Assembly: GCA_008638005.1 (NCBI GenBank)
Contig: VTPE01000001.1
Location: 1 to 64,000 of the forward strand
Source of the DNA: Pelagibacteraceae bacterium
GTDB taxonomy: Bacteria > Pseudomonadota > Alphaproteobacteria > Pelagibacterales > Pelagibacteraceae
Reading direction: 5' to 3'
Length of the DNA stretch: 64,000 nt
Positions within the stretch are counted from its first letter, which is position 1. Every line of letters starts with the position of its first letter. Positions 1-26,466 of this stretch are shown piece after piece. Position numbers and translations under genes: made by a program. The notes under the pieces were generated by a model. That model had not been told where the DNA came from, did no database searches, and was given only the letters and a program-made list of their open reading frames with translations.

Positions 1-419
1 GATAACTCATTTTCATTAATATTATTTTTTATATTAGGGTATTTTGGACCAATATATCTCTCGACAAGATCTTTGAAATAATGATTAGCAAAAACGTAAA
101 GTAGGGTCGCGCCGATTGTAAAAGACAAAATAGAAAGTAAAGATCCAAGAATAGTCCCGAAAGCAAAACCAGCGAAAATTACTAGAGGCGTTCCAAAACC
201 CATTAAAAAAACCCAAATGATAGAAAATATAAAGTAACAAATACTTATTAAAAAAATATTTTGATCTCTTAATTCAAATATTTTGCTTTTATTTTCTATT
301 AAAAATGAAGGGCTTAAAAATGTTTCTGCTCCAAAATAAAAAAAAGCTAGCACGACTGCAGCTACAATTGATAAATAGATCAAACCTAAAAAAATTTTTA
401 TTTTTGATAGTCTATTCAT
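1..419 (-). CDS. TVP38/TMEM64 (VTT-domain) membrane protein, C-terminus cut by window edge
   Basis: Reading the minus strand from the ATG at 419 gives about 139 residues before the window ends, so the C-terminus is missing. The N-terminus has one hydrophobic segment (about residues 7-29). A second hydrophobic block (about 55-112) contains a Gly-rich stretch, FGTPLVIFAGFAFG, followed by GSLLSILSFTIGATLLYVFA. This is the usual core of the TVP38/TMEM64, or SNARE-associated/VTT, family of inner-membrane proteins related to DedA, whose proposed roles include lipid scrambling and envelope homeostasis. It is divergent from rpmH with a 75-bp gap. Family assignment is by pattern only and the substrate is unknown. 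Confidence 0.72.
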   Translation of the reverse strand, partial: MNRLSKIKIFLGLIYLSIVAAVVLAFFYFGAETFLSPSFLIENKSKIFELRDQNIFLISICYFIFSIIWVFLMGFGTPLVIFAGFAFGTILGSLLSILSFTIGATLLYVFANHYFKDLVERYIGPKYPNIKNNINENEL

Positions 420-494
420 GAGTATTGGTGCCAATTATTTTTACTGTACATCTAAATAAGAATTTCTTATAAGTGCCCAAAATTAATTATAGCA

Positions 495-629
495 ATGAAA
501 AGAACTTATCAACCAAGTAAAAAAGTAAGGGCCAGAAGACACGGATTTAAGTCTAGAATGTCTACAAAGAATGGTCGAAAAGTATTAGCTAGACGTAGAG
601 CTAAGGGTAGAAAAAGAATCTCAGCTTAA
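495..629 (+). CDS. rpmH: 50S ribosomal protein L34
   Basis: This 44-residue basic protein begins [18 protein letters not shown] and ends GRKRISA, which is the L34 sequence along its whole length, so identification is secure. It binds 23S rRNA in the large subunit. It is followed 3 bp later by rnpA, the classic rpmH-rnpA-yidD-yidC order of bacteria. No strong Shine-Dalgarno sequence is visible; the region just upstream is AT-rich with possible -10-like hexamers but no convincing full promoter. Confidence 0.97.
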
Positions 630-632
630 TCA

Positions 633-986
633 ATGTCATCAAAACTTGCCTTCCAGAGTTTGAGTGGAAGTGAAGAATTTAAATATGTACTATCTGGTAA
701 AAAGCTAAGTACACCCCTGTTTACTATTTATTATAAAGAAAAAAAAAATGACGATAAAGTAAACTCTATTATGCTTAGCTGCGTTGCTGCTAAAAAGTTA
801 GGAAACGCGGTTAAAAGAAATAAAATGAGAAGAAGGTTAAAGATGGCGACTAGAAAAGCTATAACAGAAATTAAAAAAAGTTTTCAAACTAGATTTAAAT
901 ACGCGATCTTTGCAAAGCCAAAGATTTACGATGAAAAGTTTCAAAATATCGTAGATCAACTAGTTATAAAATTTAAATCAATCTAA
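633..986 (+). CDS. rnpA: Ribonuclease P protein component
   Basis: The 117-residue product is the protein subunit of RNase P, which with the RNA subunit (not in this window) removes 5' leaders from pre-tRNAs. The diagnostic RNR signature appears at about residues 58-70 (NAVKRNKMRRRLK), preceded by the strand with VAAKKLG. Length fits the family (about 110-125). The ATG lies 3 bp after the rpmH stop and yidD starts 5 bp after its end, so the genes are almost certainly co-transcribed. Its presence matters for the tRNA-Leu gene at 26350, whose promoter may leave little or no 5' leader. Confidence 0.95.
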   Translation: MSSKLAFQSLSGSEEFKYVLSGKKLSTPLFTIYYKEKKNDDKVNSIMLSCVAAKKLGNAVKRNKMRRRLKMATRKAITEIKKSFQTRFKYAIFAKPKIYDEKFQNIVDQLVIKFKSI

Positions 987-991
987 AAAGA

Positions 992-1243
992 ATGATCACT
1001 AAAATCTTATCTAAAATAATCATCACGATCATTAAGACGTATAAATATTTAATTTCACCCCTGATTGGACATAATTGTCGTTTTTTGCCAACATGTTCTG
1101 ACTATTTTATAGAATCTCTTCAAAAAAAAGGTTTTTTAAATGGAATGTATTCGGGTATTAAAAGGATTTTAAAATGTCATCCAATAACTTTTTTGGGTGG
1201 GAACTCTGGGTATGACCCAGTGGAGAAAAAAAATGGAAAATAA
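992..1243 (+). CDS. yidD: Membrane protein insertion efficiency factor YidD
   Basis: This 83-residue protein matches the YidD (DUF37/haemolytic) family: a hydrophobic or amphipathic N-terminus (residues 1-25), conserved Cys29, Cys35 and Cys62 in the contexts HNCRFLPTCSDYF and ILKCHP, and the C-terminal GYDPV motif at 73-77. The family is thought to sit at the inner face of the cytoplasmic membrane and assist YidC/Sec insertion. The end of the gene overlaps the start of yidC by 11 bp, supporting coupled translation. The function is inferred from family and operon position. Confidence 0.94.
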   Translation: MITKILSKIIITIIKTYKYLISPLIGHNCRFLPTCSDYFIESLQKKGFLNGMYSGIKRILKCHPITFLGGNSGYDPVEKKNGK

Positions 1244-14020: not shown

Positions 14021-14029
14021 AGTTTTAAC

Positions 14030-14124
14030 GGGGAACTGAATAACAACCTGAAAAATTCACGGTACGGCTGCTTTCTTTCGAACCTGACCGGATTAACGTA
14101 ACATCCACCTGCTATCAATTCCCC
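14030..14124 (-). ncRNA. ffs: Bacterial SRP RNA (4.5S RNA)
   Basis: Read on the minus strand, the 95-nt segment opens with GGGGAA and closes with TTCCCC, and these ends pair. Its centre holds the SRP domain IV core: GGTCAGG, a short TTCG-type apex, then AAAGCAGCC, equivalent to the Ffh-binding asymmetric loop of E. coli 4.5S RNA. Placement just before dnaX is common in proteobacteria. There is no T-tract terminator between its 3' end and dnaX, so the RNA and the dnaX mRNA are probably made as one transcript and separated by processing. Confidence 0.92.
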
Positions 14125-24653: not shown

Positions 24654-26345
24654 TTAGTATTTATAAAATTTTTCTAACTCAATTTTATATTTTGACTTAA
24701 TTTTATGTCTTCTTATTTTCATTGTTGGTGTTAACAATTCATTTTCAATTGTAAATTCCTCATCAAGAGTTTTAAATTTTTTTATTTTTTCAATAGCAGT
24801 TAAGCTTTTATTTGTTTTATCAATCAGTAATTGTATTTGTGTATTATCTAATTTAATATTTTTGTTTAGCACAAGCAAACAGGATAAATACTTTTCATTA
24901 TCACCGTGTACATATGCCTGTTCGATTTCGTCATGCAAACATAAAAGATTTTCAATTTTAGATGGAGAAATATTATCTCCTCCTAAAGTTACAATAATAT
25001 CTTTTTTTCTGTCAGTAATTTTTAAATAACCTTCAGAATCAAGTTCTCCAATATCCCCTGTATGCAACCATCCATTTTGAATAACTTCTGCAGTTGCTTT
25101 TGGATTATGCCAGTATTCTAACATCACGTTCTCACCTTTAACTAATATTTCTCCATCATCTGCTATTTTCACAAGGTTATTTGAAAATACCTTTCCTACA
25201 GTATCTATTCTAATATCATCTACAGGATTACAGGATACCACTGGTGAAGTTTCTGTAAGACCATAACCTTGTAAAGTTTTTAACCCTAGGGAGTTTAAAA
25301 ATAACCCAACGTTTTTATCTAGAGGACCACCACCTGAAACGAAGGCTTTTAAATTTCCTCCAAAATTATTAATTATCTTTTTTCTAACAATTTTATCTAA
25401 AATTTTATTTAAGATATTTTCAAAAACACTAAGTTTTTCTTTTTTAAATTTTTTTGCACCAAGTTCTAAGGTTTTAAAAAATAACGATCTTTTGATGACT
25501 GATGATTTTTTTACAGATGATGACATTTTATTATACAAATTATTATAAAATCTCGGCACCGCAGTCATTACGTGTGGTTTAGCAATTTTAATATTTTCAA
25601 GAAGTTTTTCAATTATGGGCGAATAGTAAATTTGCGCTCCCAGAGAAATCTGAACAAATTGAACGGTGTGTTCGTAAGAATGTGATAATGGTAGCCAGGT
25701 TAAAAACCTCGGTTGTTTAATTTCTAATTTATCAACTAAATTTTTAGCATCCTCACAATTAGATAATATACCTCCATGGCTCAAGACTACTCCTTTAGGG
25801 TTACCTTGAGTACCCGAGGTATAAATAATACACGCTGGATCTTTTCTTTTAGCTTCAGAGGTAAAATTATTTTGTTCAGTTTCAGTTAATTGATTAATAT
25901 TTAAAATATTTTCTATTTCTTCGAAACTGATAATGAATTTAAAGTTGTAATTAATTTTTTTTGCAGCTGAACTTACAGTGTCAAAAAGTTTAGTATTTGA
26001 CACAATTAATCCTTTGGGTTGACAGTCGTTTAAAATATATTCAAAATCTTTTTCGGTATAGGTTGTGTAATTTGGAACTGTAATTGCATTAACTGCCAAA
26101 ATTGAAAGATCGCTAATCATCCACTCTGGCCTGCCCTCTGATAACAGCATCACTCTATCACCTTTACTTACAGATTGTTTGGCTAAATATTGAGCGAGTA
26201 AATTAATTTGCCTTGAAGTTTCGACCCATGTTAATGCATTGGTAGATTTGTCTTTATTGATCCTAAATAAAAAAGGGCTATCTTTAAATTTATCAGCCTG
26301 AGATTGATATAACTCATACAAATTATTTAATGATTTAAATTCCAT
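24654..26345 (-). CDS. Long-chain fatty acid-CoA ligase (AMP-binding)
   Basis: This 563-residue adenylating enzyme fits the long-chain acyl-CoA synthetase family: P-loop IIYTSGTQGNPKGVVLSHGG near residue 172, LPLSHSYEHT near 216, the long-chain-type GGGPLDKNVGLFLNSLGL near 338, QGYGLTETSPVV near 360, GWLHTGDIGELDSEGYL near 422 and DRKKDIIVTLGGDNISPSKIE near 443. It would activate fatty acids for lipid synthesis or oxidation. It has no usable Shine-Dalgarno: the ATG is four bases after the 3' CCA of tRNA-Leu, so its mRNA is presumably produced by tRNA processing. Confidence 0.9.
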   Translation of the reverse strand: MEFKSLNNLYELYQSQADKFKDSPFLFRINKDKSTNALTWVETSRQINLLAQYLAKQSVSKGDRVMLLSEGRPEWMISDLSILAVNAITVPNYTTYTEKDFEYILNDCQPKGLIVSNTKLFDTVSSAAKKINYNFKFIISFEEIENILNINQLTETEQNNFTSEAKRKDPACIIYTSGTQGNPKGVVLSHGGILSNCEDAKNLVDKLEIKQPRFLTWLPLSHSYEHTVQFVQISLGAQIYYSPIIEKLLENIKIAKPHVMTAVPRFYNNLYNKMSSSVKKSSVIKRSLFFKTLELGAKKFKKEKLSVFENILNKILDKIVRKKIINNFGGNLKAFVSGGGPLDKNVGLFLNSLGLKTLQGYGLTETSPVVSCNPVDDIRIDTVGKVFSNNLVKIADDGEILVKGENVMLEYWHNPKATAEVIQNGWLHTGDIGELDSEGYLKITDRKKDIIVTLGGDNISPSKIENLLCLHDEIEQAYVHGDNEKYLSCLLVLNKNIKLDNTQIQLLIDKTNKSLTAIEKIKKFKTLDEEFTIENELLTPTMKIRRHKIKSKYKIELEKFYKY

Positions 26346-26349
26346 ATTT

Positions 26350-26432
26350 TGGTGGGCGAAAAGGGAGTCGAACCCTTAAGGTTTCCCGGCGGATTTTGAG
26401 TCCGCTGCGTCTACCAATTCCGCCATTCGCCC
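26350..26432 (-). tRNA. tRNA-Leu (anticodon CAA)
   Basis: The minus strand folds as a class II tRNA. The acceptor GGGCGAA pairs with TTCGCCC, followed by A and encoded CCA (26350-26352). The D arm has TTGGTAGACGC, the anticodon stem is GCGGA/TCCGC around loop CTCAAAA (anticodon CAA, codon UUG), there is a long variable arm, and the T arm is AAGGG/CCCTT around TTCGACT. The 83-nt length including CCA fits. The gene lies 4 bp upstream of the acyl-CoA ligase start. Confidence 0.96.
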
Positions 26433-26437
26433 CTCAC

Positions 26438-26466
26438 ATTATAATTTTTAAATTCTACATTGTTAT
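26438..26466 (-). promoter_or_regulatory. Promoter of tRNA-Leu
   Basis: On the minus strand ATAACA (26461-26466, four of six consensus) and a perfect TATAAT (26438-26443) are 17 bp apart. Only five bases separate the -10 from the first G of the mature tRNA, so transcription likely starts within a base or two of the mature 5' end. No second promoter for the downstream ligase gene fits in the 4-bp gap. Confidence 0.7.

Follow-up and report, generated by a model that had tools for sequence, protein, structure and literature searches.

A tRNA-Leu(CAA) gene abutting an acyl-CoA ligase gene in SAR11 and the predicted release of a near-leaderless mRNA

How is a protein gene expressed when its start codon lies almost on the 3' end of a tRNA gene? 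This question is raised by a 64,000-nt stretch of Pelagibacteraceae (SAR11) DNA, hereafter the window, in which the only tRNA, a tRNA-Leu with anticodon CAA, is followed on the minus strand by the gene of an acyl-CoA ligase (Table 1). An earlier reading, made from the letters of the stretch alone, had pointed out a TATAAT, the tRNA, its encoded CCA, a gap of four bases and the ATG, and all of these positions proved correct when the sequence was re-read. It had further proposed that the ligase mRNA is a by-product of tRNA 3' processing and that its supply is tied to that of the tRNA, an interpretation that is partly supported by the present analysis. The pair is probably a two-cistron operon brought together by genome compaction, from which tRNA 3' processing is predicted to free an mRNA with almost no leader.

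Table 1. Features of the window that bear on the tRNA-ligase junction, with their positions and the basis of each assignment.
Feature	Position	Strand	Basis
tRNA-Leu, anticodon CAA	26350-26432	-	ARAGORN; Rfam RF00005, 58.9 bits at 26353-26432
Encoded CCA of tRNA-Leu(CAA)	26352-26350	-	sequence
Spacer AAAT between CCA and ATG, 4 nt; predicted leader of the released mRNA	26346-26349	-	sequence
AMP-binding acyl-CoA ligase, 563 aa	24654-26345	-	ORF and PF00501; long-chain type by resemblance
TATAAT, candidate -10 of the sequence-only reading, 5 nt before the tRNA	26438-26443	-	sequence
ATAACA, -35-like hexamer paired with TATAAT	26461-26466	-	consensus scan
TAGAAT, alternative -10 with its end 19 nt ahead of the tRNA	26452-26457	-	sequence
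Divergent membrane-protein ORF, 204 aa	26574-27188	+	ORF
Bacterial small SRP RNA	14027-14124	-	RF00169, 52.7 bits; sole other Rfam match in the window

The first base of the tRNA, G1, is located at 26432, while the ligase ATG occupies 26345-26343 and its reading frame ends at 24654. The ligase matches PF00501 in Pfam (E 2.8e-70), and its resemblance to the long-chain acyl-CoA ligase models of NCBIfam lies below the cut-off of every model shown. Its frame stays open for 10 codons upstream of the ATG. No in-frame ATG, GTG or TTG was found in this stretch and an alternative upstream start is excluded, the first downstream alternative being a TTG eight codons in. On the other side of the tRNA, the divergent membrane-protein gene, whose product had no Pfam or NCBIfam match, starts 141 nt away and sets the upstream limit, so that the tRNA and the ligase form a unit of their own. 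Within this unit the two genes are co-directional, as in a tRNA-mRNA operon; no terminator was found on the minus strand in the junction region, and the 4-nt spacer is too small for a separate Shine-Dalgarno (SD) sequence or promoter. The statement of the sequence-only reading that no separate promoter fits the gap is thereby borne out, and the tRNA and ligase would share one transcript unless a promoter is present within the tRNA gene itself. In the predicted fold of such a precursor, the acceptor stem stays paired, with the ATG immediately downstream.

The junction is not peculiar to the window. The ligase is present in 312 of the 397 genomes of the order, and 80 non-redundant SAR11 ligase loci from nine genera were compared. 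It can be observed in 74 of these, belonging to seven genera, that tRNA-Leu(CAA) lies 1-8 nt before the ligase start, indicating that the junction is a conserved feature rather than a product of chance; only ATG starts were considered in this count, and all 74 are ATG. The spacer measures 4 nt in 37 junctions, 7 nt in 18, 8 nt in 8 and 1 nt in 2, the last of these, CCA-T-ATG, occurring in the HIMB114 group. Lengths of 1, 4 or 7 nt make up 57 of the 74, a bias best ascribed to in-frame movement of the start together with shared ancestry; the idea of selection for a length of precisely 4 nt was rejected, since the spacers range from 1 to 8 nt. Pooled SAR11 spacers are 92% A+T, and no SD motif (AGGA, GGAG or GAGG) was found in the spacers of the 74 junctions. 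SAR11 ligases fall to 52-55% identity with that of the window and the tRNA sequences also vary, yet the junction is kept, which implies that the arrangement is old. Loss of the spacing among relatives had been named beforehand as an observation that would overturn the proposal; instead, a distance of 1-8 nt persists across approximately 45% protein divergence, although the exact number varies. In the sequence examined of 28 distant alphaproteobacterial loci (L103-L130), no tRNA was found upstream of the ligase.

Individual loci display how the pair can be parted. The tRNA and ligase are 1.4 kb apart in L018 and about 670 nt apart in L038 and L043 (both g3), a gene of opposite orientation appearing to lie between them in L043. 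In L008, another CDS stands 7 nt after tRNA-Leu(CAA), with the ligase behind it. In L070 (genus g9; 1-1101, reverse strand), an intact tRNA-Leu(CAA) is located about 0.8 kb ahead of a second copy, which has an intact 3' half and a degenerate 5' half and lies 7 nt before the ligase; this looks like the trace left by a duplication or an insertion event at the tRNA. L065 is uninformative, as only about 70 nt of sequence precede the ligase there.

Junctions of this kind are also found at other SAR11 tRNAs. In HIMB114 (G007), of which 1.2 of 1.24 Mb was surveyed, CCA is encoded in all 32 tRNAs, as in every SAR11 tRNA read in the other samples. A co-directional CDS lies behind 19 of the 32, and in 10 an ATG follows the CCA at 1-12 nt (1, 5, 5, 5, 5, 6, 7, 9, 10 and 12), with a clear break in the gaps, none of which falls between 12 and 39 nt. 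One of these genes is hisS, which starts 5 nt after tRNA-His (L143). An ATG at exactly 5 nt after tRNA-His is found in G000, G007 and G009; the assignment to hisS rests on a family search for the G007 gene only, the ORF of G000 (L192) has the same N-terminus, and that of G009 is 478 aa long. HisS and its substrate tRNA-His may be carried on one common transcript. Furthermore, in G005 the distance from tRNA-Leu(taa) to an NAD kinase gene is 6 nt, and trigger factor follows tRNA-Leu(tag) at 12 nt in HIMB114, the latter with an SD sequence, which is present in two of the nine tRNA-abutting HIMB114 genes tested. A gene resembling CCA tRNA nucleotidyltransferase, below the cut-off, is located 6 nt after tRNA-Gln in G007 (L151) and G000 (L201), although the SAR11 tRNA genes read already encode CCA. 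In G005 (L179), an ORF whose N-terminus appears integrase-like by eye lies 46 nt after tRNA-Met and possibly belongs to an integrated element.

In samples of about 30 tRNAs per genome, an ATG within 15 nt of the tRNA was observed in 9/30 (G007), 7/29 (G005) and 8/30 (G009) cases in SAR11, each of these genomes coming from a different genus; among outgroups, the corresponding values were 6/31 in the AT-rich, streamlined G426 and 0/29 in G424, an alphaproteobacterium with 68% GC and 4.6 Mb. In HIMB114, genes that converge on tRNAs likewise end at a distance of 0-8 nt, and the median gap between co-directional CDS is 2 nt, so the short junctions are explained by compaction. What needs explaining is therefore not the short gaps, but the working start codons at tRNA junctions. 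A supply control specific to the ligase is not borne out, because many SAR11 genes are placed alike and the slot behind the tRNA is taken in L008 by another CDS.

The promoter of the unit had been placed almost on the 5' end of the tRNA. The TATAAT there, paired with ATAACA at 17-nt spacing, matches the consensus at 10 of 12 positions; the consensus scan returned 15 promoter-like sites in the region, which is near the 12.3 expected by chance. In mononucleotide shuffles of the AT-rich intergenic region, the probability of an exact TATAAT this far from the tRNA is about 1.8%. The distances of -10-like sites were compared with expected counts in 65 upstream regions of SAR11 tRNAs. Such sites exceed expectation 16-23 nt upstream (28 versus 14.7 expected), most strongly in the bin at 16-19 nt (17 versus 7.3), while no enrichment was found at 4-7 nt (6 versus 7.4), and leaderless transcription of tRNAs from a -10 at 5-7 nt is not the usual SAR11 arrangement. 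Since 19 nt separate the end of TAGAAT (26457-26452) from the tRNA, a distance within the enriched range, this hexamer is the likelier candidate for the -10 than the TATAAT at 5 nt. A -10 at 5 nt was also rejected as an arrangement shared by relatives: in raw counts, taken with no shuffle control over 75 upstream regions of tRNA-Leu(CAA), a site is present at 3-8 nt in 16 and at 12-28 nt in 45, and its position varies among relatives of the junction. A tRNA transcript lacking a 5' leader is thus possible but not favoured.

Regarding translation, an SD motif precedes only about 12% of SAR11 CDS as against 4-5% in shuffles, percentages that are approximate because ORFs were taken by a simple longest-ORF rule. 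With roughly 88% of genes lacking a recognisable SD, the missing ribosome-binding site at the ligase junction represents the SAR11 norm. The earlier remark that no ribosome-binding site fits the gap accordingly holds as far as the spacer contains no SD, but describes nothing special to this gene. All 74 junctions combine an AUG start with the lack of an SD, as is expected of leaderless mRNAs. In HIMB114, no genome-wide peak of -10 sites was found at the distance from the ATG that leaderless mRNAs would produce. SAR11 is therefore not claimed to be generally leaderless, and the missing peak counts against the reading of a processed, near-leaderless ligase mRNA. Generally short leaders had been considered from a -10 at -17 from the ATG in 5 of 38 genes in the first 400 kb, a signal that was gone in the full data.

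The enzyme that would separate tRNA and mRNA was sought among the nucleases of tRNA 3' processing. No RNase Z (TIGR02651) was found above the cut-off in 13 genomes, where all matches are partial and score 33-50 bits against a cut-off of 293 bits; for two of the weakly matching proteins, one encoded beside tatD in SAR11 and the other from an outgroup, the best scores are those of other MBL-fold hydrolases. The absence rests on one model and is a search result rather than proof, as a diverged enzyme could escape it. RNase E/G, on the other hand, is above the cut-off in 10 of 10 genomes, and RNase Z, named by the sequence-only reading as a possible processing enzyme, is not supported in that role. 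RNase PH is above the cut-off in 6 of 10 genomes; it is present in g1, g3 and g4, and gave no match above the cut-off in any of four genomes from g2 (G003, G005, G011 and G026). Published maps place cuts a few nucleotides downstream of the encoded CCA in E. coli as well as in P. acnes, a bacterium with no obvious tRNase Z (PMC4681348, PMC3848588). Taken together, the presence of RNase E, the failure to find RNase Z and the published cuts near the CCA suggest RNase E as the leading candidate for the tRNA-ligase cut. The 1-nt spacer counts against it, leaving almost no single-stranded target for RNase E between CCA and AUG.

The most probable course of events can be described as follows. Genome streamlining would have squeezed a tRNA-ligase operon until the CCA nearly touched the start codon. 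RNA polymerase would start upstream of the tRNA and continue into the ligase, RNase P would trim any 5' leader of the tRNA precursor, and an endonuclease, most likely RNase E acting in the A/U spacer, would separate tRNA from ligase mRNA. Exonucleases would then trim the tRNA 3' end to the CCA, and the ligase mRNA would emerge with a leader of 1-8 nt to be translated without SD pairing. An unlikely, though not negligible, alternative is that ribosomes initiate on the uncut precursor with the folded tRNA still attached, its acceptor stem standing approximately at the place of the SD helix, so that cleavage comes later or is irrelevant to translation. The start of most SAR11 genes without an SD is consistent with this, as are the spacers of 4-8 nt, which leave 8-12 unpaired bases (discriminator, CCA and spacer) before the ATG; spacers of 1-3 nt also exist, however, with just 5-7 unpaired bases, and the ribosome would compete with the enzymes maturing an apparently single-copy tRNA-Leu(CAA). 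In particular, where the HIMB114 group has a 1-nt spacer, an uncut RNA would have its acceptor helix beginning 6 nt ahead of the ATG, which makes a cut that precedes translation more plausible than a start on the intact precursor.

It is improbable that a promoter inside the tRNA gene gives the ligase a primary transcript independent of tRNA maturation, with its start point in the spacer or within the 3' half of the tRNA. Internal promoters are common in compact genomes, and the AT-rich anticodon loop (TCAAAATC) matches a -10 at four of six positions, but the consensus scan displays no promoter-like site within the tRNA. Moreover, tRNA function limits what the sequence can accommodate, the most GC-rich stretch here is that of the T arm and acceptor strand, and the resulting leader would contain half a tRNA. 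Still more doubtful, to the point of being hardly expected, is dedicated regulation, in which the pairing was selected so that fatty-acid activation tracks the supply of tRNA-Leu, growth-rate control of tRNA promoters being one conceivable means. The tRNA-Leu(CAA)-ligase pair is kept in seven genera and tRNA-His with hisS looks functionally matched; against this, we know of no metabolic link between leucine decoding and an acyl-CoA ligase, unrelated genes sit alike behind other SAR11 tRNAs, the slot at 7 nt in L008 belongs to another CDS, the pair is separated in L018, L038 and L043, and the convergent gene ends at 0-8 nt from tRNAs point to compaction. The ligase junction is regarded as a side effect of compaction, arising in a lineage that makes little use of SD sequences, and not as a dedicated regulator of the ligase.

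The general pattern of tRNA-mRNA junctions in SAR11 is of greater interest than the single ligase junction. Tentatively, as a serious possibility towards which we do not yet lean, tRNA punctuation may be normal in SAR11: a quarter to a third of the tRNA genes would act as 5' processing signals that free near-leaderless mRNAs, those of the ligase, hisS and NAD kinase among them. With no recognisable RNase Z, the cut would fall to RNase E or another nuclease, and tRNA maturation and gene expression would be one step. Were this so, bacteria that rank among the most abundant of the ocean would make a set of mRNAs as mitochondria do, by excision of tRNAs, and would translate these from leaders of just 1-8 nt. 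They would offer a bacterial model for tRNA punctuation arising from genome compaction, in which one could test by what means RNA is cut between CCA and AUG, with both products kept, in a cell that has no recognisable RNase Z. Start codons and promoters in SAR11 should not be judged by SD sequences.

Among known systems, tRNA punctuation in animal mitochondria is similar in that a tRNA abuts the next ORF, here by 1-8 nt in 74/80 loci, and excision would leave an almost leaderless mRNA without an SD. It differs in that the SAR11 junctions concern single genes in a bacterial chromosome rather than a genome-length transcript, the CCA is encoded, cleavage is only predicted, and the ELAC-type RNase Z that performs the mitochondrial 3' cut had no TIGR02651 match above the cut-off in the 13 genomes. 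In E. coli, thrU-tyrU-glyT-thrT-tufB is a bacterial tRNA-mRNA operon, with tRNA genes upstream of a protein gene and an ordinary leader with an SD before tufB. The SAR11 unit resembles it in having a tRNA upstream of a protein gene within one unit, both products being needed, whereas the predicted leader at the ligase junction is only 1-8 nt; the SAR11 arrangement of tRNA-Tyr/tRNA-Gly before tuf has a spacer of 39-43 nt with an SD-like stretch. The leaderless mRNAs of Streptomyces, Mycobacterium and Propionibacterium, defined by a leader under 10 nt (PMC4681348), share the short leader predicted here, the AUG and the lack of an SD, but those counted in that study go back to transcription starts mapped on the AUG or close to it, while the SAR11 5' end is predicted from tRNA 3' processing. 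Maturation of E. coli tRNA 3' ends by RNase E and then RNase PH/T is alike in the encoded CCA, the presence of RNase E and the A/U-rich sequence next to the CCA; tRNAs of that type usually carry a trailer that is discarded, whereas tRNA-Leu(CAA) of SAR11 is followed by a conserved mRNA, and RNase PH was not above the cut-off in the g2 genomes. No published report of the SAR11 arrangement was found in the open-licence literature under tRNA punctuation in bacteria, SAR11 leaderless mRNAs or SAR11 RNase Z. The SAR11 junction is close in form to both mitochondrial tRNA punctuation and operons of the tufB type, and identical to neither.
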